A stretch of 64,000 nt of DNA, from contig NZ_FOVF01000004.1 of NCBI RefSeq assembly GCF_900115085.1, forward strand, positions 62,001-126,000, in the 5' to 3' direction. The notes under the pieces were generated by a model. That model was not told the DNA's origin. It worked only from the letters and a program-made list of their open reading frames with translations, and did no database searches. Made by a program: the position numbers and the translations under genes. This DNA comes from Dokdonella immobilis. GTDB taxonomy: Bacteria; Pseudomonadota; Gammaproteobacteria; Xanthomonadales; Rhodanobacteraceae. This document shows, piece by piece, positions 40,571 through 53,864 of this stretch (positions are counted from its first letter, which is position 1; each line of letters opens with the position of its first letter).

Positions 40571-40955
40571 CGCCACTGCCCTCGTCGATCCGGTCAGCAT
40601 GCATGCCTGCAATCGCAATTGCCATGGAAGCCCCGGTCCGGTTCGACGACGCGTGCCTGCGGCGCACCCGATTTCGGGAATCGAGGTCCGATGCTGTCCC
40701 TGATCGCTCCCGCCGTCAGCGCCGGACGACACCGTCGACGCGGCCGCCCGCGGTTCCCGGTCGCCGTGCCCGGTCTGTGCGTGTACGGCCTGCCGCTCGT
40801 CCATGCCGGGCTGTTCGCGCCGGACTCGCAGGGCTGGCCGATGGCCATTGCGGCAGCCGGACTTGTGTCATCGAGGCAGGGTGACTTTGGCCATGCGCCG
40901 TGGTGCGGTGGATGCGTCAGACTCCGCGCGCCCCGCCACCCCAAGGAATTCCCGA
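40571..40955. other. Divergent gap between DUF6445-like and DUF1579 genes
   Basis: This 385-bp stretch has no well-supported gene. A frame from 40691 encodes a mildly hydrophobic peptide (LCVYGLPLVHAGLFAPDSQG) but lacks a ribosome binding site and runs out of frame into the next gene. The palindrome GCATGCATGC near 40598-40607 is the only notable site. Confidence 0.4.
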
Positions 40956-41549
40956 ATGACACTTGCGCTCCCCGGTCCCCGTTTGCTGCTGGCTTTCACC
41001 AGCGCCCTATTGCCGCTCGCGGCGCTTGCCGCGTCTCCGGCGCCCGAACAGGCCCCCACGATCCCGGCCGAGGTCTATGCACCGATCGCGATGGAAGCGG
41101 GCACCTGGGACGCCGAGATCACGTTCTACGAGAAGGACAAGCCGTCCGGCACGGCCACCGGCGTGCAGGTCAATACCTTGCTGCTCAATGGCCACTGGAT
41201 CACCAACGATTTCACGATACCCGCCAACGGCAAGTTTCCGGCCTACCAGGGCCACGGCGTCTGGGGCTACGACCCGGTCGCCAAGACCTATGTCGATACC
41301 TGGGTCGACACCAATGACGGCGCCGTGCGCACCGACTATGGCTACTGGCAGCCGGACGAGAAGATCATGACCTGGTCGTCCAAGCAGAACGACGGCAAGG
41401 GCCATTTCGTCGACTACCGCATCGTCGAGGAATTCAAGGGCGACACGCGCATCTTCACGTTCACCCAGCTGGGCATCGTCACGCCGAATCCGCACCCCCT
41501 GGTGCGCATCGTGTTTACGCGGCGCGCCGAGGACAAGGCGGCCGGCTGA
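40956..41549 (+). CDS. DUF1579 family secreted protein
   Basis: These 197 residues begin with a signal peptide (LLLAFTSALLPLAALAASPA). The mature part, IAMEAGTWDAEITFYEKDKP and TLLLNGHWITNDFTIPANGK followed by YQGHGVWGYDPVAKTYVDTW, fits DUF1579, a lipocalin-like beta-barrel family of unknown role. AAGGAA lies seven bases before the ATG. The stop codon sits in the loop of a GCCGGC-TGAA-GCCGGC hairpin (41541-41556), which may terminate transcription. It converges on the DUF3224 gene. Confidence 0.82.
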   Translation: MTLALPGPRLLLAFTSALLPLAALAASPAPEQAPTIPAEVYAPIAMEAGTWDAEITFYEKDKPSGTATGVQVNTLLLNGHWITNDFTIPANGKFPAYQGHGVWGYDPVAKTYVDTWVDTNDGAVRTDYGYWQPDEKIMTWSSKQNDGKGHFVDYRIVEEFKGDTRIFTFTQLGIVTPNPHPLVRIVFTRRAEDKAAG

Positions 41550-41573
41550 AGCCGGCGCCATCGACCCGGGTGC

Positions 41574-42071
41574 TCAATCCGTGGGCAGGGTGTATTCGAG
41601 ATCGTAGCTGTGCTTGCCGGCTGCCATGGTGATGCGCAGCCGGCCTTCGATACCGGTGAGCTGGCCTGTTCCCGAGTCGGGTACGACGCGGATGCTCCAG
41701 TCGCGCGGCACGCCGTCGACCATGACCGCGCTGTGCAACAGGGCGAAGCTGCCCTCGCGACCGTCAAGCGTTCCGCTGACCTTTTCCAGAGCCACGTACG
41801 CACCGGATTTCGAGCCGTCGCCCGCTGCCAGCATTTCGCCGCGGCCGCTGCCCTCGATGGCTCCGTGGTAACGCTTGTCGAGCGCGATGCGGGCGAAACC
41901 AGCCGCCTCGGCATCGGGGTTGTCGGCCCTCTGCGGGGTGATCTTGACGTCGAAATCGCCGTGGGCCTGCATGGTTCCTGACTCCTTGGGTGCGCAATAC
42001 GATGGGGTCGATGCGGACATCCAGACGATAGCGCAGACCAGCGACCCGAGCGGAACCTGGGGAAATCTCAT
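41574..42071 (-). CDS. DUF3224 family secreted protein
   Basis: This 165-residue protein has a signal peptide (VPLGSLVCAIVWMSASTPSYC) and a DUF3224 domain: GDFDVKITPQRADNPDAEAA, ALDKRYHGAIEGSGRGEMLA, GSFALLHSAVMVDG, and a final GIEGRLRITMAAGKHSYDLE. These small beta-barrel proteins bear some likeness to allene-oxide-cyclase folds, but have no known function. The ATG at 42071 is chosen because the signal peptide begins there. Confidence 0.82.
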   Translation of the reverse strand: MRFPQVPLGSLVCAIVWMSASTPSYCAPKESGTMQAHGDFDVKITPQRADNPDAEAAGFARIALDKRYHGAIEGSGRGEMLAAGDGSKSGAYVALEKVSGTLDGREGSFALLHSAVMVDGVPRDWSIRVVPDSGTGQLTGIEGRLRITMAAGKHSYDLEYTLPTD

Positions 42072-42268
42072 GCGAATCTCCGGATGGACCTGGGGCGCGC
42101 ATGAGACACCGGATCGCCGCGCGTTGATTGGATAAACGCGACAATCGGCCGGTATCGGCGCGGGCCCGGTCAAGCTCGCCGCACTTCGGCACATCGTGCC
42201 GCGCTGCGCGCTGGCGCCTGCGGGCCAGGCCCAACGGCAAACGGTCGTGCCAGGCGCGAAATCGATGC

Positions 42269-42291
42269 TTTCCTACACGCCGTGTAGGAAA
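42269..42291. promoter_or_regulatory. Perfect 10-bp-arm palindrome with an extra half-site
   Basis: TTTCCTACAC and GTGTAGGAAA flank a GCC loop. A third partial copy TCCTACACGCC follows at 42294-42304. The site lies 122 bp upstream of the first 59-residue gene and 198 bp upstream of the divergent DUF3224 gene. It could be an operator or a short repeat. Confidence 0.45.
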
Positions 42292-42412
42292 TCTCCTACA
42301 CGCCAACGCGGCAAAACCCCGACGACGGGCCTGACACGTTTCTTCACACTGTCGATCCGGCTCGTTCGCAATGGCGATCCGGACCGGCAACCGCACCACC
42401 ACGAGAACGCCC

Positions 42413-42592
42413 ATGCGACAGGAAGCACGCGAGACCTTGACCGCGATCAGGACCCTCACCCGGCTGGAGGCGTGGATCCGTTGCGCCAGGGCCGAACTGG
42501 CCAGCACCCCCGGTGACGAACTGCTTGCCGAGTTCATCCGCGTCAATGAAAGGCTGCTGGCCGAAGAGCGGCGCAAACTGCTCGCGGCGTGA
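42413..42592 (+). CDS. Small protein, 59-residue family, copy 1
   Basis: This is one of three paralogues in the window, each exactly 59 residues. It begins MRQEARETLTAIRTLTRLEA and ends ERLLAEERRKLLAA. The sequence is almost entirely helix-forming and highly charged, with no signal peptide or membrane segment. Fixed points across the copies are the MR start, TRLEA, the A[RK]AEL block, FIRxNE and KLLAA. The shared start position supports the ATG at 42413. The family was not recognised. Copies 2 and 3 lie at 49691 and 49981. Confidence 0.75.
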   Translation: MRQEARETLTAIRTLTRLEAWIRCARAELASTPGDELLAEFIRVNERLLAEERRKLLAA

Positions 42593-42676
42593 GCCGCGCC
42601 GGGCCAAGCCGGCGCCGCGCCGATCGTCCTGTCCGGCCCTGGGCCGATCCCGAATTTGTGCCCTGCCCTGTTCCCC

Positions 42677-44218
42677 TCAATCGAAGTCGGTCTCGAAGAC
42701 CACGTCGAATGCCGGCGAGAATTCGCTCGTATGCCCGTCCGCATCGGTCGCCGTGGCGACGAACGGTAACGCGCGAGCGCCTGCGGGCACGGTCAGCACG
42801 ACTGACCGCGGCGCCTGCGCACTCGACTCGGGATAGCTGTCCTGCGCCAGCCATGTGCCGGATCCGCCTTGTGCGTCAAGATAGAAATCGATGCGCAGCG
42901 GATACGGCGCGTTGGCGGGGCTCGTGTCGACCCGATAGGTCACCGACAACTGGTCGCCGACCTGGCTCGCCGCTACCACCTCGGGCCAGTTCTGCCCATT
43001 GTTCGCACCGCCGTCGGCATCCTCGGGATCGTTCGGTGTCGGGCCATTCGCGCCGATGTCGATGTTGGCGCGACCCGGGCCGTGGTTGCCATGGATCGCA
43101 TTGGCGCGGCTGTCGAACGACTCGCTCGCGCCATTCGCCGACGCGATGATGCCGACCCCGCTGTTGAAGGCGATCAGGTTGGCCTGGCCGGGCCCGAATC
43201 CGCCGATGATCGCCGCGGTCGAATCCGCCAATGCACCCGACACCTGGATGCCGCCGCCGAATATCGCCGCATTGGCCTGGCTGAATCCGTTCGGGACCGG
43301 ATGCAGGCCACTCCAGTCGGTGCCGATGTAGTTGCCCTGGATCTCCAGCCCGACATATTGGCTGGCGCCGCTCTGGCGCGCGATGTTGATCGCGAACGAG
43401 CGATTGCCGGAAATCACGTTGCGCGAATCGGGCGATGCGCCACCGATACGGATGTTGGCGCGGTTGCTCGGGATGCGAATGGCCGGGCCGTTGCCGGACG
43501 CTCCGTTCGGGATCGCTGTCGTGCCGCTCGCATCGGTGCCGATCAGGTTGCCTTCGACGATGGCCGGACCATCGATCAGGACGCCGAAGTTCGCCCCACC
43601 CGACAGCAGATTGCGCTGCCATGGCTGGATGCCACCGACCTGCGCCGAACTCTGGCCCGTGCGCAGCGTGCTGCTGCTGTTGCCGGTGCCGGCCAGGGCC
43701 TGGCCGGTTATCGTGGTGCCAATGAAGTTGCCGTAGACATTCACCTGCGAATTGCCGGCGAGATTGCTGTTGCCGGCGATCGGCTGGGAGAAACCGTGCA
43801 GGGCGAGCCCTTGCACGGTCACCGTGTAGAACGCCGCACCGTTGGCAAGAAGGAAACCGTTGCCACCGGATCCGACGAGCTCGATCGCGAGGACGGTATC
43901 GAGTCCGCCCTGGTCGGGCGTGCGCGTATTCATCTGGCTGCCGGCCTGGCTGTAGCCGTCCACGATGAGGCTGCAGGTGATCGATGGCAGGCTGCCGGTC
44001 ACGGCGATGGCGTGCGGGCCGCTGCCGGGAATCGCGAACTCGACGCGGTTGCTGCCGCAGGCGCCGTTGGCATCGAGCATCGCCTGGCGCAGGGAACCGA
44101 CGCCGGAATCGTTCGTGTTGACGACCGTGAAGGTGCTTGCCTCGGCGCCAGACCAAAGGACCCACAGCAGCATGGCGAAGGCCGCGCGCGAGGGCAGGAA
44201 CGGGAAGGATCGAATCAT
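42677..44218 (-). CDS. Secreted right-handed beta-helix repeat protein
   Basis: This 513-residue exported protein has a signal peptide (FAMLLWVLWSGAEA) and then a CSLREA-like start (TFTVVNTNDSGVGSLRQAML). A long repeated region rich in NLIGT, GNYIGTD and NVISGN steps (about 60-390) is typical of parallel beta-helices. A fibronectin-like C-terminal part (about 400-500) ends in FDVVFETDFD. The start could also be 21 bases upstream. The neighbouring FG-GAP protein has a similar C-terminal tail. It probably acts at the cell surface; no catalytic residues were recognised. Confidence 0.8.
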   Translation of the reverse strand: MIRSFPFLPSRAAFAMLLWVLWSGAEASTFTVVNTNDSGVGSLRQAMLDANGACGSNRVEFAIPGSGPHAIAVTGSLPSITCSLIVDGYSQAGSQMNTRTPDQGGLDTVLAIELVGSGGNGFLLANGAAFYTVTVQGLALHGFSQPIAGNSNLAGNSQVNVYGNFIGTTITGQALAGTGNSSSTLRTGQSSAQVGGIQPWQRNLLSGGANFGVLIDGPAIVEGNLIGTDASGTTAIPNGASGNGPAIRIPSNRANIRIGGASPDSRNVISGNRSFAINIARQSGASQYVGLEIQGNYIGTDWSGLHPVPNGFSQANAAIFGGGIQVSGALADSTAAIIGGFGPGQANLIAFNSGVGIIASANGASESFDSRANAIHGNHGPGRANIDIGANGPTPNDPEDADGGANNGQNWPEVVAASQVGDQLSVTYRVDTSPANAPYPLRIDFYLDAQGGSGTWLAQDSYPESSAQAPRSVVLTVPAGARALPFVATATDADGHTSEFSPAFDVVFETDFD

Positions 44219-44320
44219 CGCTCTGGGCACTCCGGCCATCTGGGGTTTGCCTGGCGGGATTCGCAGCGCCAGGTCGAACGCGCGTTCCTGCGTCGACCCT
44301 CGCCGCGGATCCCTCTGCGC

Positions 44321-45721
44321 CTACTGGAAGCCGTTCCGGAAGATCACGTCCGGCTGGAACTCCTTCCACACGCCGTTGCCGGTTTGCGGGGGCGGGAAAT
44401 TCGCATCGGGCGCGCCGACGAACGCGTGGTCTCCCGACATCACGACACTCCTTCCGAGCCCGTCGCCACCGTGCGCGAGCTGGCCGAAACCCAGCACGCT
44501 GTCGGTCCAGACCGTCTGGCCGAGAAATTCGAACTGTCGATAGACGCGAGCGGTGCCTTCATGGGCGACCGTGCCGGTGCTGTTCGGGCAGCCCATAATG
44601 AACTGGCCGTAGACTTCATCGACACTGAGGCTGGCTCCGCACAGTCCGCCGACCGTCGCCGGCGGACTCGGAAAATACTCGGCGAGGTAATCGTATCCAA
44701 TGATGAAGGCCGGCTTGAAGATCGTGACCGAGCCGACCCGACCGGCGCCATTGTCGCGCCCTGTCGCGCCGACGTAGACAAAGTTGGCGTCGATACCGAC
44801 GCTCGTGCCGAACACCTCGAACGCGCCCGGCGGCTGCGCCGCAAGGGTGCCGACCTCGATCAGGCCGCCATCCGTCGTCTGCGACGTGCTCGGAGCGTAG
44901 ACGTGCGCGGCACCGGCGAGCAGGTTGGCGCCCTGCGATTCACCGGGCGCGCCGGCGATCACGAGGAAGGCCTGGTCCGTGATCTGCTTGATCGCCACCG
45001 ACGCTCCGAGCGCGGCCCCGCTGCTACCGCAGCGCAGCGACGGAACATTCGGAAAGTTCTCCCAGGTCGTATTCGACGCGTTGTACCGGTAGGTCGCGAT
45101 GCAGCCGCTGCCGCCGCCGGCATTCGGTACCGATGCGACGGCCATGATGCCGTCGATCGCGACGTCACTGCCGAAGTTGCCGCCGTTGCCGGTTCGCGCT
45201 CCTCGGAAGGTCAGGGTCGGGGTGCCGCTGTCGACCCAGAATTCGATGCGGCCGGCACCGCTTGTTGCGCCGTTTGTGTAGTCCGGCGCACCGACGAGAA
45301 CGGTCCCATCATCCACCGCGATGCTCGCACCGAAATGCGCACCGGCCTGCGACACGTTCGAGAACAGCGAGCCGACATATTCCCAGCCATTCGGCGCCGG
45401 ATCGAAGATCTGCACTTCTCCCGCATCGGCCATGGCGCCCACGTCGCGATCGGGAACACCGACATAGACGCGCGTGACGACGCGCGTATTGTTGCTCCCG
45501 AGTACCGTGCGAATCGCAATGCTGGTGCCGAGATGATCGCCCTGCAGACCGAAGAATCCCTGGGCGCGGGGAATCCACGTCTCGGCATCGGCCCGCTGCG
45601 GCAAGCCCGCGCCGGCGGCGAGCCACACAGTGGCGATCAGCGCCAGCCGCGCCGTGCTTCGCATGTGGCGAAGGCCCCGGCAGGCTGACGTCTGCAGGCA
45701 CGTTCCTTGTTCACGAATCAT
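44321..45721 (-). CDS. Secreted FG-GAP repeat protein
   Basis: These 466 residues form a seven-bladed FG-GAP-type propeller: repeated units such as HFGASIAVDDGTVLVGAPDY, NFGSDVAIDGIMAVASVPNA and GLGRSVVMSGDHAFVGAPDA. The signal sequence (LALIATVWLAAGAGLPQRADA) is preceded by a long N-region. The ATG at 45721 is taken because AGGAG lies nine bases upstream; an internal ATG at 45664 would give a standard signal peptide but has no ribosome binding site. The tail PDVIFRNGFQ resembles that of the beta-helix protein downstream. The likely location is extracellular or surface. Confidence 0.82.
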   Translation of the reverse strand: MIREQGTCLQTSACRGLRHMRSTARLALIATVWLAAGAGLPQRADAETWIPRAQGFFGLQGDHLGTSIAIRTVLGSNNTRVVTRVYVGVPDRDVGAMADAGEVQIFDPAPNGWEYVGSLFSNVSQAGAHFGASIAVDDGTVLVGAPDYTNGATSGAGRIEFWVDSGTPTLTFRGARTGNGGNFGSDVAIDGIMAVASVPNAGGGSGCIATYRYNASNTTWENFPNVPSLRCGSSGAALGASVAIKQITDQAFLVIAGAPGESQGANLLAGAAHVYAPSTSQTTDGGLIEVGTLAAQPPGAFEVFGTSVGIDANFVYVGATGRDNGAGRVGSVTIFKPAFIIGYDYLAEYFPSPPATVGGLCGASLSVDEVYGQFIMGCPNSTGTVAHEGTARVYRQFEFLGQTVWTDSVLGFGQLAHGGDGLGRSVVMSGDHAFVGAPDANFPPPQTGNGVWKEFQPDVIFRNGFQ

Positions 45722-46142
45722 CTCGGTACTCCTTCCACGCGGAATGGGGTTGTGATGGGCGCTCGCGCCGGAAAGTCGGATCGAACCCATCGCCATGGCG
45801 ATGGATGCGCCGGATGGATTTCCAGCGAAGCTGCTCAGGCAGACGTCGAAACGCAGGCGTTCGGATCATGCGGCGTATCGCCAGCCGTAAAGTCCGGGTC
45901 GGCCGGCAGCGGGATCGATCACGCCGCCCGGCACGCCGAGGCTCATCGATCGGCCGCAGGCCACGCTCTGCCTCACCCAATCACGACCCGAGGAAAGCTC
46001 CGCCAGCGAAAGCCGCCCGCACCGCGGAGCCGCGGCGCGTTCGATCCGGGATCAGCGATGCAGAGGTGTCACGCGCACGGCGCGACGGAAAGCAGGGTTG
46101 GAACGGATCACCCCGGAAACAGCATCCGCGGCGATCGAGCGC
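45722..46142. other. Gap between FG-GAP gene and the second kinase gene
   Basis: This 421-bp stretch has no credible gene. It holds an 18-bp perfect palindrome, CCATCGCCATGGCGATGG, at 45787-45804, 66 bp upstream of the FG-GAP start, which could be an operator. No terminator with a U run was identified for the kinase gene, whose stop is at 46143. Confidence 0.5.
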
Positions 46143-48797
46143 TCAGCGCTTGCTGTCGGCGTGCGTCGCCGAGACGACTGCCGCCAGCTCGTGCGTGCGC
46201 GGGTGTTCGGTGCCATAGACACGCCGGTAGACCGCCAGCGCATCGTGACGAAACGCGAGCGCGCGCTCCGTCGCGCCGCCCGCGTCCTCGATGTCGGCGA
46301 GCAGGCGGTCGATCTCGGCGAGCGTGACGCTGGCGGCGGACTTGCCGGCGAGCAATCGGGCCCGGGCCGCCCGGGCCTCGGCCTCGCCCTCGTCGCGACG
46401 GCCGCTGCGTGCCAGTGCCGCGCCGTGCGCGGCCCCGGCCAGATCGAGATGGCCGTCCGCGCCGGCCGGTCCAGCCAGCTCGCCAATCGCCGCCTGCAGG
46501 GTTGCGAGGGCCTGAGGACGATCGAGCGCGAGTTCGACGCGACCGAGCATGAGGGTCACCTGGCCGCGCATCGGATGCGCGGCCGCGTCCATGATCCGGT
46601 GCGCCTCCTCAAGCGCGGCGAGCGCCGCGTCATCGTCGCCGCCCTCGTGCAGCGCCACCCCGAGCGAGGTCAGCACGATGCCGAGCATCGGCGCATCGGG
46701 TGCAAGCGTCGCTCGCGCGCGCTGGACCGCATCGCGGAGCGTGGCGATTCCGGCCTCGGCGTGTCCGGCGAAGGCCTGGGCCAGGCCGAGCGTGTTCTCG
46801 ATGTAGATGCGACGCGCATGATCGGGCCCGAGCCTGCGCACGAGCAGGTCGTCCGCGCGCATGGCCAACGATTCGGCTTCCGCATAACGCTCGAGTGCGC
46901 CGTCGTCGGTGGCGATGTTCATGAGATCGGTGGCGACATCCGGACCGTCGGCGCCCTGCAGGGCCTCGCGCTCTCCGAGGATGCGCCGGTGCAGTTCGAG
47001 CGCATGCGCATGATCGCCGACCTGGTTGTCGAGCCGGGCCAGCGCGACCAGCAGTTCGATGCGCGCGTTGCGATAGTCCGGCCCGGCGTCGCGCAAGAGC
47101 GGCTCGGCCTCGGTGAAGTCTGCGCGCGCAGCGGCGATGTCGCCGAGTTCACGCTTGACGTAGCCGAGTTCGACCAGCGCGTTGCCGAGTATCGGCGAAC
47201 GATCGCCGAAGTTGCGTCGCAGCTCGGCGACGTTGGTCTCGAGGATGGCCACCGATTTCGCGTTGTCGCCGATCTGGCGCAAGCCGAGCGCGATCACGCT
47301 GCGCAGTTCGGCCTGCATGTCGGGCGCGTCGGCGAAATCGTGCTCGACACGATCGAGTGCGGCGGCCAGCAGGTTGCCGGTCTGGCCCTGCCCGCCACGA
47401 CTGGCCGAGAACGGATTGACGTCGCGGATCAGGTTGACGAGGAACGTGCGGCTGCGCTCGGAGCGCTCCGCTTCGAGGCGTGCGACATGCGCCTGCCATG
47501 AGACGAGCAGGATACCGGCGGCGAGGCCGAGGATCGCCAGGATCGAAACCGCGACGCCGACGCGGTGACGACGGGCGAACTTGCGGCTGCGGTAGGCCAG
47601 CGAATCGGGTCGTGCGAGGATCGGACGGTTCTCGCGGTAGCGGTGGATGTCCTCGGCCAGCGCGGCCACCGAGGCATAGCGCTCGGTTGGCTGCTTCTTC
47701 AGTGCGCGCGCGACGATCGTCTCCAGTTCGCCGCGCAGGGCGCGTCGCCATTCGGCCGGCGTGGACGAACGCGCCTCGGCACGCGCCGTGGCGACCTCGC
47801 CGGCGCCGCCGGTCGCGCCCGACAGTCGCCGAGGTTCGCCCTCGAGGATCGCGCGCGCCCACTGCGCCGGCGACGAGCCACGATCGGCATACGGCCCTTC
47901 CCCGGCCAGCAGGACGTAGAGCAGCACGCCAAGCGAATAGACGTCGCTGGCCACCGTGATCGCCGCATTCTCGATCTGTTCGGGCGACGCGTATTCGGGT
48001 GTCAGGGCGACACCGTCGGCGAGCGTCAGCTCGGTCTGCTCGGGTGCATCGCGATCGTCCTCGAGCAGCTTGGCCACGCCGAAGTCGAGAAGCTTGACCT
48101 CGCCGTCGTCCTGCACGAGCACGTTCGACGGCTTGAGATCGCGGTGCACGACGAGGTGCGAGTGCGCATAGGAGACCGCGGCACAGACCTGCTCGAACAG
48201 GCCGAGCCGTCTGTCGATCGACAGCCGGTGGCGATCGGCCCAGGCATCGATGCGCTCGCCCTCGATCCATTCGAGGACCAGATAGCGTTGCCCGCGTTCG
48301 CTCTCGCCGGCATCGAGCAGGCGTGCGATGTGATCGTGTGCGAGCCGGGCAAGGATGCGCCCTTCGCGCTGGAATCGTCGGCGTGCCGGCGCACCCTCGT
48401 TCGAACCCCGCAGCAGCTTGATAGCCGCATGGGCGTGGTACTGCCCGTCGACGCGTTCAGCCAGCCAGACCTCGCCCATGCCGCCGCGCCCGAGCAGGCT
48501 CACGAGTCGCCACGGCCCCATGTGCTCGCCAGCACGATCCACGCCCTGGCCCTCGTTTGGCTCCGCATGCAGGCGCCGGATCGCGGTCCCTTCCATGAAC
48601 TGCGCCGCGGCGCCGCCACGGTCGGCGCGCACGAGCGCGTCGACGCGTTCGTACAGCTGCGGATCGATCGCGCGCAGGCGCTCCATGAAGCCGGCGCGCG
48701 CGCCCGTGTCCTCGATCTGCATCCATGCCTCGAATTGGCGCATCGCCTCGCGCGTGCGGTCCAGCCGCTCGCCATCCCTGTTCCGCTCTTCGCCCAT
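46143..48797 (-). CDS. Membrane Ser/Thr protein kinase with TPR sensor region (second)
   Basis: This 884-residue kinase has the same layout as the one at 26.7 kb. The N-terminal region is about 95 residues; the kinase domain (about 96-390) has GRGGMGEVWLAE, Lys127 (AAIK), HRDLKPSN (218-225), DFG (238-240) and SPEQ. One membrane helix lies at about 413-433. A helical TPR-like region (about 450-870) follows. The ATG at 48797 has GGAGGA seven bases upstream. The related ECF sigma gene lies 118 bp upstream, so the pair is less tightly coupled than the first. The sensor regions of the two kinases differ strongly, implying different signals. Confidence 0.92.
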   Translation of the reverse strand: MGEERNRDGERLDRTREAMRQFEAWMQIEDTGARAGFMERLRAIDPQLYERVDALVRADRGGAAAQFMEGTAIRRLHAEPNEGQGVDRAGEHMGPWRLVSLLGRGGMGEVWLAERVDGQYHAHAAIKLLRGSNEGAPARRRFQREGRILARLAHDHIARLLDAGESERGQRYLVLEWIEGERIDAWADRHRLSIDRRLGLFEQVCAAVSYAHSHLVVHRDLKPSNVLVQDDGEVKLLDFGVAKLLEDDRDAPEQTELTLADGVALTPEYASPEQIENAAITVASDVYSLGVLLYVLLAGEGPYADRGSSPAQWARAILEGEPRRLSGATGGAGEVATARAEARSSTPAEWRRALRGELETIVARALKKQPTERYASVAALAEDIHRYRENRPILARPDSLAYRSRKFARRHRVGVAVSILAILGLAAGILLVSWQAHVARLEAERSERSRTFLVNLIRDVNPFSASRGGQGQTGNLLAAALDRVEHDFADAPDMQAELRSVIALGLRQIGDNAKSVAILETNVAELRRNFGDRSPILGNALVELGYVKRELGDIAAARADFTEAEPLLRDAGPDYRNARIELLVALARLDNQVGDHAHALELHRRILGEREALQGADGPDVATDLMNIATDDGALERYAEAESLAMRADDLLVRRLGPDHARRIYIENTLGLAQAFAGHAEAGIATLRDAVQRARATLAPDAPMLGIVLTSLGVALHEGGDDDAALAALEEAHRIMDAAAHPMRGQVTLMLGRVELALDRPQALATLQAAIGELAGPAGADGHLDLAGAAHGAALARSGRRDEGEAEARAARARLLAGKSAASVTLAEIDRLLADIEDAGGATERALAFRHDALAVYRRVYGTEHPRTHELAAVVSATHADSKR

Positions 48798-48915
48798 GCG
48801 TGGATCCTCCCCGATCACGAGCGACCTGGCGCGCCCGACACCCGCGCATCGGCATCGATGCGCCTCCCTGCAGCGACAGACGGATTCGAGGGTCGCGTCC
48901 GGATCATGATCCTGC

Positions 48916-49467
48916 TCAGGCCGAGACGATGTAGTCGAAGAGGAATGCTCGCGCACGCCGCCAGTCGCGCTTCACCGTGGCGATCGAAATCTCCAGCACA
49001 TCAGCGACCGTCTCCTCGGTCAGTCCGCCGAAATAACGGAGTTCCACGACCTGGTGGGCGCGCGGGTCCGCCGATTCCAGCGCCAGCATGGCCTCGTCGA
49101 TGGCAGGCAGCAGGCTTTCATCGGCGAGCAGGTCGGCCAGGGTGTCGCCCAGCGGCTGCAACGCTTCGCCCCCGCCGCGCTTCTGCGCGCCGCGCTCGCG
49201 CACATGGTCGACAATGACGCTGCGCATGACCTTGGATGCGTACGCATAGAACACGCGCCGGTTCCGGTCCGGCAGGTTCGAACCCTCGGGCAGACGCAGA
49301 TAGGCTTCATGCAACAGGCCGCCGGGGTCGAGCGAAATCGTTCCGGCCTGGGCCAGGTGACTTCTGGCCAGGCGCATCAGCTCCGGGTAGAGAAGCCGGA
49401 ACAGCGGTTCGCGCGCCGCATCATCGCCGGCGGCCGCACGCTGCAGCAACTGGGTGACCTCATGCAT
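48916..49467 (-). CDS. ECF-type RNA polymerase sigma factor, kinase-linked (second)
   Basis: This 183-residue sigma-70 family protein has region 2 at about 20-90 (PGGLLHEAYLRLPEGSNLPD, RVFYAYASKVMRSVIVDHVR), the subgroup marker RERGAQKRGGGEALQPL, and region 4 at about 128-178 (RYFGGLTEETVADVLEISIA). Like the first kinase-linked sigma it lacks an anti-sigma neighbour. It differs clearly from the first copy, so the two pairs are old paralogues or separate acquisitions. Confidence 0.9.
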   Translation of the reverse strand: MHEVTQLLQRAAAGDDAAREPLFRLLYPELMRLARSHLAQAGTISLDPGGLLHEAYLRLPEGSNLPDRNRRVFYAYASKVMRSVIVDHVRERGAQKRGGGEALQPLGDTLADLLADESLLPAIDEAMLALESADPRAHQVVELRYFGGLTEETVADVLEISIATVKRDWRRARAFLFDYIVSA

Positions 49468-49690
49468 CGCGTACTACCTTCCGGACCACGGACTCCGTGC
49501 CGATGATCGCACTCCGCGGGCCCGAATGCAGGCACTGCGAGCACCACGCGCTGACCTGCCCGACCACGTTCCGCCATGGCTGGGCCGCACCGGCGCGACT
49601 TCCGCCTCGGGCCTGCAGCGCAGGCACGGGAAAAATAGTGCACAATGAACCATCGGGATGGCAGGACCCGCCCGTGCAGGGAGCCGTTTC

Positions 49691-49870
49691 ATGCGCACCG
49701 AAGCCCGCAGTATACTGAGCCAGATCCGGGCCCTGACCCGTCTGGAAGCCTGGATCCGCAGTGCCAAGGCGGAACTGGACCACGCACCCGACGACGCATT
49801 GCTCGCCGAATTCATCCGGCTCAACGAGCAATTGCTGATTGAGGAACGCGAGAAGCTGCTCGCGGCCTGA
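49691..49870 (+). CDS. Small protein, 59-residue family, copy 2
   Basis: These 59 residues begin MRTEARSILSQIRALTRLEA and end EQLLIEEREKLLAA. It is identical to copy 1 at 42 of 59 positions by direct count. AGGGAG lies nine bases before the ATG. It is followed 110 bp later by copy 3 in the same orientation, forming a tandem pair. It is predicted soluble and helical. The family was not recognised. Confidence 0.75.
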   Translation: MRTEARSILSQIRALTRLEAWIRSAKAELDHAPDDALLAEFIRLNEQLLIEEREKLLAA

Positions 49871-49980
49871 AAGGCATGTCGGGCATGCGGTGCCGGCGGA
49901 GAGATCCGATCGCCGCGCCTGTGCACGGGCAAAGGAGCTCCCACCAGACTCGTGAAACCGCCCTTCCGGGATCGATAGCC

Positions 49981-50160
49981 ATGCGACAAGAAGCGATACA
50001 GACCCTCAATCAGATTCGGCGCCTGACCCGGCTCGAAGCCCTGATCCGCTGCGCCCGCGCCGAACTGGCCAGCATCCCCAGCGACGAGCGCCTGGCCGAT
50101 TTCATCCGCACCAATGAAGCGCTTCTGAAGGCCGAGCGCGAAAAGCTGCTCGCCGCCTGA
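49981..50160 (+). CDS. Small protein, 59-residue family, copy 3
   Basis: This third paralogue, again exactly 59 residues, begins MRQEAIQTLNQIRRLTRLEA and ends EALLKAEREKLLAA. It shares the CARAELAS block with copy 1 more closely than with copy 2. No strong ribosome binding site is evident (GGGATCG lies about nine bases upstream). The frame stays open upstream to 49876, but similarity among the copies begins at this ATG. The upstream spacers of the three copies do not look alike, so selection appears to act on the protein. Confidence 0.75.
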   Translation: MRQEAIQTLNQIRRLTRLEALIRCARAELASIPSDERLADFIRTNEALLKAEREKLLAA

Positions 50161-50296
50161 ATTCCCCGCCGCGGCCTGCTCTGGAGCGCCGCTTCCTGCA
50201 GAGGCTTCGCAGGACGAAGCAGGCCGACGCATGCGCCTCTGCCCCCAACCGAACGGGGCTGACGCCGAAGCCGATTTCCGCAGACCGGAAATACGA

Positions 50297-50329
50297 ACGC
50301 CCCCGCCGAGGGAGGGGCGGCGGGGGCGT
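50297..50329 (-). terminator. Probable terminator of the fasciclin gene
   Basis: ACGCCCCCGCC and GGCGGGGGCGT form an 11-bp perfect stem about 40 bp beyond the fasciclin stop codon. The bases that follow on the minus strand (TCGTATTTCC) are only mildly T-rich, so efficiency is uncertain. Confidence 0.6.
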
Positions 50330-50370
50330 AAGGTCGAGCCTGTGATCAATCCGCTCGACAGGACCTGGGC

Positions 50371-50865
50371 TTACTCCTTCGGGAGCAGCACGGTATCGAT
50401 GACGTGGATGACGCCGTTGGAGGCTTCGACGTCGGCCGTGGTGACCGTGGCGTTGTCGACCATGACCTTGCCGTCGACGACCTTGATCGCGACGGACTGG
50501 CCGTTGACCGTCTTGGCGCTGTCGAGCTTGACCACGTCGGCCGCCTTCACGTTACCGGCGACGACGTGGTAGGTCAGGATCGCGGTCAGCTTGGGCTTGT
50601 CCTTGAGCAGGCCCTCGACCGTGCCGGCCGGCAACTTGGCGAACGCCGCGTCGGTCGGCGCAAACACGGTGAACGGGCCGGGGCCCTTGAGCGTGTCGAC
50701 CAGGCCGGCCGCTTCGAGCGCGGTGGCGAGGGTCTTGAACGAACCGGCAGCGACGGCGGTGTCGACGATGTCCTTCTTGGTGTCCATTTTGTTCATGTCT
50801 CCAGCGAATGCAGTCATTGGCGCAGCGGCGACCGCCGCGGCGAGGATCAGGGAGGTGAGATTCAT
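50371..50865 (-). CDS. Secreted fasciclin (FAS1) domain protein
   Basis: These 164 residues have a signal peptide ([16 protein letters not shown]) followed by a single FAS1 domain: [37 protein letters not shown] (H1-type box), [16 protein letters not shown] and [15 protein letters not shown] (H2-type box). The conserved YHVV is present. TGGAGT lies seven bases before the ATG. It is divergent from a B12-binding MerR regulator, the usual clue for control by that regulator. Bacterial FAS1 proteins are adhesion-type secreted proteins; this one's partner is unknown. Confidence 0.92.
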
Positions 50866-50948
50866 GGTCGTACTCCAGTGGGGGTGGGGAAGAGAGCAAT
50901 GAACGGTGTCTAGCGTTTGTCCATGTATTGGGGAGCGTTCATGGAGCC

Positions 50949-51024
50949 TGTACACTACATGTCCAACTATTTGGTGTCAACATCGCCAATTTACTTGGAC
51001 AAGTTTCGTTAATATCTGGACAAG
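50949..51024. promoter_or_regulatory. Cluster of TGGACA/TGTCCA half-sites upstream of the MerR regulator
   Basis: Direct repeats CTTGGACAAG (50994-51003) and TCTGGACAAG (51015-51024) are 21 bp apart, two helical turns. An inverted TGTCCA is at 50960-50965 and TGTACA at 50949-50954. The region is AT-rich for this genome and includes TTAATAT at 51009-51015. It lies between the fasciclin and regulator genes and is a good candidate operator for the regulator. Confidence 0.55.
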
Positions 51025-51050
51025 AACCCGTCGGCTGCCTACCATTAGCC

Positions 51051-52019
51051 ATGCCTGATCCAATACCCGCCTTTCATTCGGTCCGCGTCGCGTCGCGTCG
51101 CACCGGCCTCAGCCCGGACCTGCTGCGGGCCTGGGAAAAGCGGTATCACGCCGTGGCGCCAGCGCGCACGGCAGGCGGACAGCGCAACTACACCGATGCG
51201 GACATCGAGCGCCTGAAGCTGCTGGCCCAGGCGGTCGCGGCCGGCCGCCAGATCGGCCAGGTGGCCGGACTCTCCGAAACCGAATTGCGCAGCCTGGTCG
51301 CCGCCGATGCGCCGCAAGGCAACTCGCCCGAACCGGCCGATTCGAACGACGCGGTCGCCACCGCCCTGCTCTCCGGTGCATTGGCGGCGGCCGAGGATTT
51401 CAATGCCTCGACGCTCGAGGCGGCCTTGCGCACCGCGGCGCTGCGCCTGCCTTCCGACCAGGTGCTCGACCGCGTGTTCGGCCCCCTGCTGCTGGCCATC
51501 GGCACGCGCTGGCACGAGGGCACGTTTCCCCCGGCGAACGGGCATCTGGCCACCACCGTCATCCGCCGCGTGCTCAACTGGATGACCGATTTCCCGCTCG
51601 TCGCCGACGATGCGCCGCGCATCGTGGTCGGCACACCGGCCTTCCAGATGCACGATCTCGGCGCGATGCTGGCGGCCACGGCGGCGGCCAGCAATGGCTG
51701 GCGCGTGACTTTTCTCGGTGCCAGCCTGCCGGCGGAAGAACTGATCCGGGCCGCGCGCATGGCCGACGCCGATGCGGTGGCCCTCTCGATCGTGCATCCG
51801 ACCGACGACGTCCGCGTCGCCAGCGAGATGCGCGCGCTGCGCGCCGGCTTGCCCGATCGGGTCGCGCTGGTCGTCGGCGGTGCCGGCGCTGGCGCCTATG
51901 CCGGGGTGCTCGACGAAATCGGTGCGCGGCGACTGCCTTCGATCGCCTCCCTGCGCAGCTGGCTACGCGAGCGCCAGCAGCAGCCGGATACCGCGCTCGT
52001 TGCGGGGCATCCGGCCTGA
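51051..52019 (+). CDS. MerR-family regulator with cobalamin-binding domain (CarH/LitR-like)
   Basis: These 322 residues hold an N-terminal MerR helix-turn-helix (about 8-78: VRVASRRTGLSPDLLRAWEK, GGQRNYTDADIERLKLL), a four-helix B12-binding cap (about 100-185) and a Rossmann B12-binding domain (about 188-305: FQMHDLGAMLAATAAASNGW). In CarH, light-sensing adenosylcobalamin contacts W-x9-E-H and a later histidine; here Trp154 and His165 have the right spacing, but the Glu is Gly164. His201 fits the lower ligand. A light- or B12-responsive repressor is likely but unproven. The ATG at 51051 is the natural start of the MerR domain. Confidence 0.85.
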   Translation: MPDPIPAFHSVRVASRRTGLSPDLLRAWEKRYHAVAPARTAGGQRNYTDADIERLKLLAQAVAAGRQIGQVAGLSETELRSLVAADAPQGNSPEPADSNDAVATALLSGALAAAEDFNASTLEAALRTAALRLPSDQVLDRVFGPLLLAIGTRWHEGTFPPANGHLATTVIRRVLNWMTDFPLVADDAPRIVVGTPAFQMHDLGAMLAATAAASNGWRVTFLGASLPAEELIRAARMADADAVALSIVHPTDDVRVASEMRALRAGLPDRVALVVGGAGAGAYAGVLDEIGARRLPSIASLRSWLRERQQQPDTALVAGHPA

Positions 52020-52059
52020 CCGGGTCATCGCAGCCGGCCGGATTTCCGCCAGCGGTTCC

Positions 52060-52463
52060 TCAGCCTGCGCCGGCTGATCGCTCCAGGGTCTGCCTGGCCA
52101 CGGCGAGTCCCTGTGCTCGATCATGCCGGCCACGGTCCCGGCCATCGTGTCGGGCAGCAGGTCGGCGATCCAGACGAACCGGCAGACATTTCGCCCGGCG
52201 CCGAAGATCTGCGCCGATGCACTGTAATGGCGCAACGGCGGATCGACGATGGCCCAGGCCAGGCGGCGCTCCTCGTCGTCGATATCGAGAATCAGCTCGC
52301 GTCTGACCTGCCGAAGGTGACTATCCGGGCACCCGGTTCAAGTCGCGTATCGACGACGAACCCGGGCACGAGTCGGCTATGCAAGGCCCCGACATCCCGC
52401 ACCGCATCCCAGACCCGAGCGGCCGGCGCCCGGATCAGGACTTCCCTGCGGACGGACGCCATG
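52060..52463 (-). pseudogene. SRPBCC family gene broken by two frameshifts
   Basis: From the ATG at 52463 the frame reads MASVRREVLIRAPAARVWDA and continues to IVTFG, then hits an early stop. The homologous sequence resumes in a second frame (VRRELILDIDDEERRLAWAI) and runs through FVWIADLLPDTMAGTVAGMI to about 52117. After EHR, a third frame (LAVARQTLERSAGAG) gives the natural end and a stop at 52060-52062. The pieces together match a SRPBCC/polyketide-cyclase-like protein of about 134 residues. Two small indels (near 52305 and 52112) are needed, so it is a decayed gene or has sequencing errors. It is adjacent to the VOC gene (one base apart). Confidence 0.7.
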
Positions 52464-52464
52464 C

Positions 52465-52836
52465 TCAGGCCACCGGCGCCATGCAGACCGCTTCGACATT
52501 GTTGCCGTCGGGATCGATCAGGAACGCCGCATAGTAGGTCGGGCTGTAGTCGGCGCGCAGGCCCGGTGCGCCGTGGTCGCGGCCACCGGCGGCGAGCCCG
52601 GCCGCATGGAACGCGTCGACCGCGCGCCGGTCTCTCGCGCGAAAGCCGACGTGGACCGCATTGCCACCTTTACCGCCGCCGGCGTAAAGCCAGAGCGAGG
52701 GTGCCCCCTTCGGCCCGAGGCCGGCACTCGATTTGTCGTGCGAGTCGAGCACATGGCCCAGTGGCGACAGCGCAGCTTCGTAGAAGCGCACGCTTGCGTC
52801 GAGGTCACGCGTCTTGAATCCGATATGGTCGTACAT
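52465..52836 (-). CDS. VOC family (glyoxalase-like) protein
   Basis: These 123 residues form the paired beta-alpha-beta fold of the vicinal oxygen chelate family: MYDHIGFKTRDLDASVRFYE (metal His4), HVGFRARDRRAVDAFHAAGL, and the C-terminal DPDGNNVEAVC with the metal-binding glutamate. GGAGAG lies four bases before the ATG. The next gene downstream is the broken SRPBCC gene, with the AraC regulator upstream on the same strand, suggesting one small operon. The substrate is unknown. Confidence 0.88.
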   Translation of the reverse strand: MYDHIGFKTRDLDASVRFYEAALSPLGHVLDSHDKSSAGLGPKGAPSLWLYAGGGKGGNAVHVGFRARDRRAVDAFHAAGLAAGGRDHGAPGLRADYSPTYYAAFLIDPDGNNVEAVCMAPVA

Positions 52837-52872
52837 GGTCTCTCCGGTTCGGTGATGAATCCGGGAGAGAGA

Positions 52873-53718
52873 TTACGGAGCGGCGCGCGCTCCGACTTGG
52901 AGAAAATTGCGCTCGCCGCGCGCGGCCTGGCGAAAGCGTCGCGGCGACACCCCGGCGGCACGATGGAACGTGCGCACGAAATTCGACAGGTCGCCGAATC
53001 CCGAATCGAAGGCGATGTCGGTGACCGGCCGGTCGCCATCGGCGAGCTGCCGCGCCGCACGGCGCAGGCGCGCGCGGACGAGATACTGGTGCGGGGTCAC
53101 GCCGAGCACCTTGTTGAACACGCGCAGGAAGTGGAAAGGACTCAATCCTGCGTCGTCGGCGAGGTCCTCGAGGCGCACGGCTCCGGTCGCGTTCGCGTCG
53201 ATCCACAGTGCCGACTCGACTGCACGCCGCTGGTCACGGGCGCTCTCGTGCACGGGCGCGCGGCGCCGACCGGCCATCGTCTCGACGAAGCGCGCGGCCA
53301 GCAGCAGGCCGACTTCGTCGACGCCGAGATCGCTGCGTCCCGCGCACGCCGCCTGCGCGAGTTCACCGAGCACGACCAGACCCGGCAACGGCGCAACACT
53401 GCCGACTTGCCAGGCCCTCGACGAAGGTGCGAACGGCTCGACGGCCTCGGGCGAGAACTGGAACGAGAGGCATTCGTCGCCGCCGTCATGGTGGTCATGC
53501 GTGCAGCAGTATTCGTGGCCGGCATGGCCGATCATCAGCGAGCCGGCGACCAGGTCCGATCTCCGGCTGCCGATGCGACAGCCGAAGCTGCCCCGGCGCA
53601 CGTACGAAATCGAATGCCGTGCATGCTGCTCGGTAAACGGCCGATCGCTCGACGACGCCGTGCAACGGTAGTCGATGACGAGGACCGATTCATGATGCAG
53701 GATGGTCACGGCCGGCAT
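52873..53718 (-). CDS. AraC family transcriptional regulator
   Basis: This 281-residue regulator has an N-terminal cupin-type sensor domain (about 10-130, with [19 protein letters not shown], a His/Cys-rich loop that could hold metal) and a C-terminal AraC DNA-binding domain (about 170-270) with two helix-turn-helix motifs: [20 protein letters not shown] and [20 protein letters not shown]. It lies 36 bp upstream of the VOC gene on the same strand and probably controls that operon. The sensor ligand is unknown. Confidence 0.92.
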
Positions 53719-53864
53719 GGCGCATGGTAGCCCAGCGCAGGCGCGACGAATACGATCGCCCTGGCGGCGACCGAATGCCGCCCGGGCAGCGTTCGGATAG
53801 ACTGCGCAGGCGTACCCGGGCCCTCCGGAAGTCCACTCCGCAACCCTGCTCGAGGCCCATCGTC

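Follow-up and report, generated by a model that had tools for sequence, protein, structure and literature searches.

The window analysed here, a stretch of 64,000 nucleotides from Dokdonella immobilis (assembly GCF_900115085.1, contig NZ_FOVF01000004.1, positions 62,001 to 126,000 of the forward strand), raises the question of what three small genes on its forward strand encode and what their products may do. A sequence-only reading of the window had pointed to three frames of 59 residues, at 42413-42592 (copy 1), 49691-49870 (copy 2) and 49981-50160 (copy 3), and had taken them for real, selected proteins of no recognised family. Judged by sequence comparison, they belong to a lineage-restricted family of small proteins, 59-60 residues long, for which the searched libraries have no annotation. 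A palindrome, TAGGAAATTTCCTA, lies upstream both of copy 1 and its orthologues and of the gene of a P-II nitrogen regulator, and is probably the site of a common regulator; that the two genes have it in common is new and provides the first clue to a function. With a probability of roughly one in three, we propose that the protein is a nitrogen-linked small modulator, made together with P-II, that would act by binding another protein.

Coding status and range of the 59-residue family

Each of the three frames translates to 59 residues followed by a stop codon. Copies 1 and 2 are identical at 42/59 residues, the same count as given before, copies 1 and 3 at 44/59, and copies 2 and 3 at 39/59, with 122, 127 and 116 of 177 identical nucleotides for the pairs 1/2, 1/3 and 2/3, respectively. 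The common start and end motifs named by the sequence-only reading were all found in the three copies, and the flanks are indeed unlike each other, with an ungapped identity of 0.18-0.37 vs 0.66-0.72 within the frames. When the D. immobilis genome (4.64 Mb in 78 contigs) was searched with copy 2, copy 1 was retrieved at E 3.3e-19 and copy 3 at E 1.6e-14 (1.3e-31 for copy 2 itself), a similarity that is, on this measure, far beyond chance. Besides the three window copies, this genome holds one further copy.

The ratio of nonsynonymous to synonymous differences (pN/pS) in the coding frame is 0.21 for the 11 close orthologue pairs and 0.39 for the three window pairs; a ratio near 1, which would have spoken for unselected frames, was thus not observed. 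For all 120 pairs of the 16 family sequences the mean rises to 0.46, an effect of synonymous sites that are close to saturated. Over the same pairs, the differences at codon positions 1, 2 and 3 number 1969, 1523 and 3452, and frames +2, +3 and -3 give pN/pS values of 1.56, 3.12 and 5.63. The alternative that the frames are non-coding, or the trace of a gene on the opposite strand, could draw on antisense frame -1, which is open in 16/16 sequences, and on antisense frame -2, which is open in 7/16, all seven from Dokdonella, with a lowish pN/pS of 0.37 for close orthologues (0.57 for window pairs). However, pN/pS in frame -1 is 1.51 for close orthologues (1.03 for window pairs) as against 0.21 in the coding frame, frame -2 is broken by stops in 9/16 sequences, and the codon-position and six-frame tests rule out a chance or antisense frame. 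We consider it virtually certain that the family is one of real proteins, and grant this alternative next to no probability. Jukes-Cantor dN/dS values between the window copies are 0.22/1.56, 0.23/0.87 and 0.34/1.04, and by these distances they are old copies under purifying selection. In the phylogenetic trees copies 2 and 3 form long branches within the Dokdonella clade (clade support 0.96 and 1.00; inner order unresolved).

All three frames stay open further 5' and would encode 73, 70 and 94 residues from earlier ATG codons (copies 1, 2 and 3, respectively); conservation among relatives supports the 59-residue start as the probable one. A loose Shine-Dalgarno-like motif, located ~10-14 bases before the start, was found in 12/16 family sequences and not for copy 3, L040, L041 and L049; for L040 and L041 the likely ATG is one codon further upstream than the start used. 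A promoter scan revealed no sigma-70-type site at copies 1-3.

Profile searches of Pfam, NCBIfam, PHROGs and PADLOC gave no meaningful match, in agreement with the earlier claim that the family is unrecognised. The three copies matched no family at E <= 10 in Pfam, PHROGs or PADLOC, the sole NCBIfam match was that of copy 2 (E 0.088, 12.5 bits vs a cutoff of 202), and 16 members searched against Pfam matched two families, one member each (E 0.17 and 0.2). No description of this small-protein family turned up in the searches of open-access papers. A single-protein search with copy 2 found matches at E <= 0.01 in 7 of the 40 genomes of relatives; a contig scan gave no match with copy 2 alone and 13 titled loci with the family profile. 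Profile searches detected the family in 6/10 Dokdonella genomes and, within the Rhodanobacteraceae, gave matches in 26/233 genomes at E <= 0.01, comprising 16 clear members (E <= 3.9e-14) and 10 weak matches; in both searches the E-values are dependent for those genomes whose sequences built the profile. Six of the clear members occur in genus group g1 (Dokdonella), eight in g14 (Tahibacter) and two in g37 (Pseudolysobacter).

Among the weak matches, six (L025-L028, L030 and L033) belong to one larger protein family, which we take to be YCII-like, and not to the 59-residue family; three others (L029, L032 and L034) are unsupported as members, and L031 (genome G058, genus group g32) is supported by hhalign. 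L036 (E 2.1e-5), located in a genome that also holds a clear member, is a doubtful candidate. With a profile lacking its own sequence G058 was matched at E 0.0062, and G057 was not reported at E <= 0.01. The g32 proteins L051 and L052, from a fourth genus, are distant homologues (hhalign probability 95.1%, E 3.1e-8 over 55 columns, in a single comparison); in the order sample they were found with a profile containing the L031 sequence and were excluded as independent evidence. This sample yielded matches in 11/398 genomes, all within the same bacterial family as D. immobilis, and the class (3/369) and phylum (3/398) samples each yielded D. immobilis itself, one Tahibacter-group genome and one match near E 1e-3. 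On these searches, clear members are found in Dokdonella, Tahibacter and Pseudolysobacter only, with distant forms in one further genus.

The further copy in the D. immobilis genome is N-truncated (G000:C56:13321-13461, reverse strand, locus L015/L004), has an in-frame stop just upstream, and is probably a remnant. A convergent frame that resembles a helix-turn-helix (HTH) regulator (L004 1168-1485, forward strand) ends 12 bases away from the stop codon of this copy.

The palindromic box at family and P-II genes

Copy 1 is preceded, 114-129 bases upstream, by the palindromic box GTAGGAAATCTCCTAC (42284-42299), which together with the overlapping TTTCCTACACGCCGTGTAGGAAA (42269-42291) makes up three half-sites. 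Allowing 2 mismatches, TAGGAAATTTCCTA was found upstream of 16/21 family copies, at a distance of 115-455 bases (copy 1, the 13 titled loci, L023 and L024; the 21 copies leave out the C56 remnant and L036), and the match level of each of the 16 was reached by 0/200 mononucleotide shuffles. L021 shows 4 mismatches, a level reached by 10/200 shuffles, and copies 2 and 3, L051 and L052 show 6 or 7, i.e. the box is absent. In the D. immobilis genome GTAGGAAATNTCCTAC occurs exactly at 7 places, vs 0 for the reversed control, and the control gave 0 matches in the 10 Dokdonella genomes together, one of which has no box. At one mismatch the D. immobilis genome shows 11 places, and four one-mismatch places were left unused because the control gave 6. 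The 14-base palindrome was not found in the open-access papers searched; a 12-base part of it appeared in three, all on eukaryotes.

One of the seven D. immobilis boxes precedes a P-II gene (PF00543, E 4.7e-33; NF007946, 184.2 bits vs a cutoff of 181), which neighbours ubiK (NF047835) and a comM-like gene here (G000) and in G002, G003, G009, G058, G063 and G066; a comM-like gene also neighbours the P-II gene of G244. The P-II gene with the best match was inspected in each of 22 genomes, and a box within 2 mismatches was present in the 300 bases upstream in 14 of them, namely in 10/10 of Dokdonella, 2/2 of g32, 1/2 of g37 and 1/8 of the Tahibacter group. The unboxed P-II genes have 3 mismatches (L118 and L121), 4 (L119) or 5 to 7 (L113-L117); in G244 (L117) an exact box is located 324 bases upstream of the P-II gene. 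An ammonium transporter gene (TIGR00836, E 3.9e-137) follows the box in G236.

The box is also present well beyond these genes. Exact boxes were found in 14/117 genomes and 5/26 genera of the family sample and in 60/388 genomes of the order sample, with the reversed control in 3/388; the three control genomes all belong to family f9, and some of the f9 boxes may be chance. The element extends across the order, and its neighbours vary. An operator devoted to nitrogen genes only was not upheld outside the Rhodanobacteraceae, the 29 box loci fetched there being without P-II or AmtB.

Several findings weigh against a link between the 59-residue gene, the box and P-II. Among the eight P-II genes of the Tahibacter group, of which just the one is boxed, five have nothing similar to the box in the 300 bases upstream; the second P-II gene, which in D. 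immobilis adjoins AmtB-like and glnA-like frames (names by reading), has no box within 2 mismatches at any of 8 loci (3 mismatches in L130, 4 in L131); 4/10 Dokdonella genomes carry a boxed P-II gene without the 59-residue gene; and the g32 homologues L051 and L052 are without the box. Boxes in the D. immobilis genome also precede a RAYT-type transposase gene (Y1_Tnp at cutoff; NF047646 at E 1.8e-9, below cutoff), a RAYT fragment and an integron integrase gene (TIGR02249, E 1e-144), with two further places unclear, and in the Dokdonella genomes G001 and G005 a box has an EamA-like gene on one side and a nucleotide-sugar-dehydrogenase-like gene on the other. At 29 fetched box loci, representing 28 places as L140 and L147 are the same one, and taken from families f8, f9 and f10 only (none from f2), none of seven query genes (P-II, AmtB, the 59-residue gene, comM, ubiK, glnA and RAYT) was found. 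In L146, L148 and L164 the box is flanked by convergent genes, the next one being thiolase-like (by reading), and a promoter role is doubtful there.

Further observations concern the places of individual boxes. In L041 (5545-6000) the distance between box and start is 455 bases; the intervening stretch resembles an inserted repeat element, and box and gene are both kept. G006 has two boxes 212 bases apart. In two Dokdonella genomes a RAYT-type gene or fragment has a box directly ahead of it (L056, L057, L072 and L075), and an exact box lies shortly upstream of the D. immobilis integron integrase gene (L060 483-498) and of an integrase-like gene in another family (L162 1508-1521). In L146, L148, L156 and L164, from another family of the order, the box starts right at the stop codon of an oxidoreductase-like gene, and elsewhere shortly after such a gene; the box is then followed by a prpB-like gene (L154, L156, L157 and L160) or an rpoH-like gene (L152), and it also occurs ~320-330 bases before an LpxL-like acyltransferase gene (all names by reading). 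An 82-residue small protein is encoded ~110 bases downstream of an exact TAGGAAATTTCCTA in two genomes of another family (L161 1176-1421 and L163 1217-1462, both on the reverse strand), with 54% identity between the two genomes; it is unrelated to the 59-residue family (hhalign probability 0.2%, E 0.33).

Predicted structure and proposed function

AlphaFold2, supplied with the 16 sequences, predicted two helices (residues 3-31 and 36-58) in a single chain, with a mean predicted local distance difference test (pLDDT) score of 95.8 and a predicted template-modelling score (pTM) of 0.76; on this model, the fold is very likely a helical hairpin. Size and predicted fold suggest that the hairpin perhaps associates with itself, for instance as a dimer. 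The invariant columns of the 16-sequence alignment (A5, L9, I12, R17, A25, A27, E28, L29, P33, L38, F41, I42, E46, L48, E52 and L56) contain hydrophobic and charged residues alike. Fold searches gave only generic helical arrangements, and structure was set aside as a path to function. The best Foldseek matches were uninformative (E 1.6 in PDB, 0.76 in the viral set), and VIA-align returned designed hairpins and mixed proteins at up to Z 9.1, where helical arrangements below about Z 13 may mean nothing; TraM (2q0o, which we take to be TraM), IcmR and a DUF683 protein are among its tied rows and were not taken as evidence. A sequence-profile search of PDB gave 5 matches (best E 0.0041), four of them designed proteins and one an RNase P subunit (E 0.27).

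Two known groups share the size class and the helical hairpin with the 59-residue family: the Spo0E-like small phosphatases, which carry an SQELD signature, and Rop/ROM, an antiparallel dimer forming a four-helix bundle. None of the 16 members matched the Pfam model of either, SQELD is not present in the alignment, and ROM appeared in Foldseek as a chance-level row (2ijj, E 4.7, TM 0.44). Lineage-restricted small helical proteins are a kind of family already known; in the present case the palindrome shared with P-II adds interest.

The explanation that we propose starts from this palindrome. As a putative operator it would be bound by a regulator, copy 1 and P-II would respond together, and the signal would be nitrogen status; the protein would be cytosolic, would be produced along with P-II, and would serve as a small modulator by binding another protein, much as other small adaptors under nitrogen control do. 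Control common to the 59-residue gene and the P-II gene has, in our estimate, slightly better than an even chance, and the modulator role is put forward more tentatively. Copies 2 and 3, as old paralogues without the palindrome, are probably expressed differently. A more specific version, which we regard as speculative and rather unlikely, would make the family a bacterial small-protein regulator of P-II/ammonium signalling, in which a hairpin made with P-II via an undescribed operator and regulator binds P-II, AmtB or another P-II target, and an order-wide operator system recruited unrelated small helical proteins elsewhere, e.g. the 82-residue protein of L161 and L163.

Small proteins with such tasks have been described in other organisms. 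For sP36 of Methanosarcina mazei, PMC10714827 describes a protein of 61 residues that binds AmtB1 and GlnK1 and is proposed to mediate the inhibition of AmtB1 by GlnK1; it resembles the 59-residue family in size, in the link with P-II and ammonium transport, and in the proposed protein-binding mode. Unlike the family described here, sP36 is archaeal, and the same paper reports experimental proof of its partners and of its relocation to the membrane, whereas the evidence here is a common upstream palindrome. IF7, PipX and PirA are small nitrogen-control proteins of cyanobacteria, of which IF7 has 65 residues and a gene repressed by the nitrogen regulator NtcA, as stated in PMC7760959. They too are small proteins, with a nitrogen link that is conjectural in our case; they differ in belonging to another phylum and in having known targets, and the likeness is one of description. 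The present work adds an unannotated small-protein family under selection, which the palindrome ties to a testable partner, and makes two questions testable: what binds the palindrome found across the order, and whether these bacteria use a dedicated small protein in P-II signalling, as the archaeon and the cyanobacteria do.

A serious possibility, to which we give marginally more weight than to the nitrogen-linked modulator, though still short of an even chance, is that the box marks a general, non-nitrogen regulon of a NarL/FixJ-type response regulator, with the hairpin modulating a kinase, a sigma factor, a membrane process or the like. The box has inverted TTTCCTA half-sites, which are similar to the high-affinity site of BvgA (the heptamer of BvgA/EvgA-type regulons; PMC4314077) and stand back to back at the core. 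The 60/388 order genomes (control 3/388) in which the box lies beside unrelated genes, including that of the unrelated 82-residue small protein, also fit a general regulon. Against it, just two neighbours, the P-II gene and the 59-residue gene, were seen in more than one genus at the box loci inspected in the Rhodanobacteraceae, and the regulator type is suggested by resemblance only.

Two other explanations turn on the neighbours of particular copies. Copies 2 and 3, 110 bases apart in tandem, might regulate the extracytoplasmic function (ECF) sigma factor and the Ser/Thr kinase encoded next to them, acting for instance like small anti-sigma proteins. The sigma gene (48916-49467) matches TIGR02999 above its cutoff, the kinase frame (46143-48956) matches Ser/Thr-kinase models below their cutoffs, and the start of copy 2 is situated 223 bases from the divergent sigma gene. 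The kinase/sigma locus noted by the sequence-only reading is thus real and adjoins copies 2 and 3 only; a link with it is not supported, as neither protein was matched (E <= 1e-3) at any of 18 further family loci, of which 6 span only ~3 kb. Copy 1 is moreover located elsewhere, and the segment carrying the tandem copies is strain-variable, and we judge this regulation improbable. Still less probable is an origin from a mobile element, as a phage or plasmid accessory protein or as half of a toxin-antitoxin pair. It could be seen in the fourth copy, a remnant beside the HTH-regulator-like frame, and in the boxes by RAYT, integrase and (by reading) YefM/YoeB-like genes. Against such an origin, copy 1 has no match among 50,697 phage or 72,556 plasmid records, a pattern-based scan of IMG/VR found no relative of the family, PHROGs and PADLOC gave none, and the left neighbourhood in Dokdonella is partly common between genomes.

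Genomic neighbourhood and the variable segment

The family gene stands alone, as a solo gene. Copy 1 occupies a position common to other Dokdonella genomes, where the shared part of the left neighbourhood includes a DUF3224 protein (in the window, L037 and L038) and a second protein common to L038-L041. In the Tahibacter group, six of seven loci (L042-L047) have a GspH/FimT-like pilin frame and uvrB upstream (names by reading).

Copies 2 and 3, the kinase frame and the ECF sigma gene are contained in a strain-variable segment of 7.68 kb (42603-50280), in place of which the relative L037 has 2.36 kb of unlike DNA. On the left of it, window positions 40869-42602 align to L037 4434-6190 at 83% identity, and on the right, positions 50281-53733 align to L037 8548-12016 at 85% identity. 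The segment possibly arose by recombination at the paralogues or represents an insertion hotspot. Its left end is 11 bases beyond copy 1 and its right end 120 bases beyond copy 3, with family genes at or in both edges.

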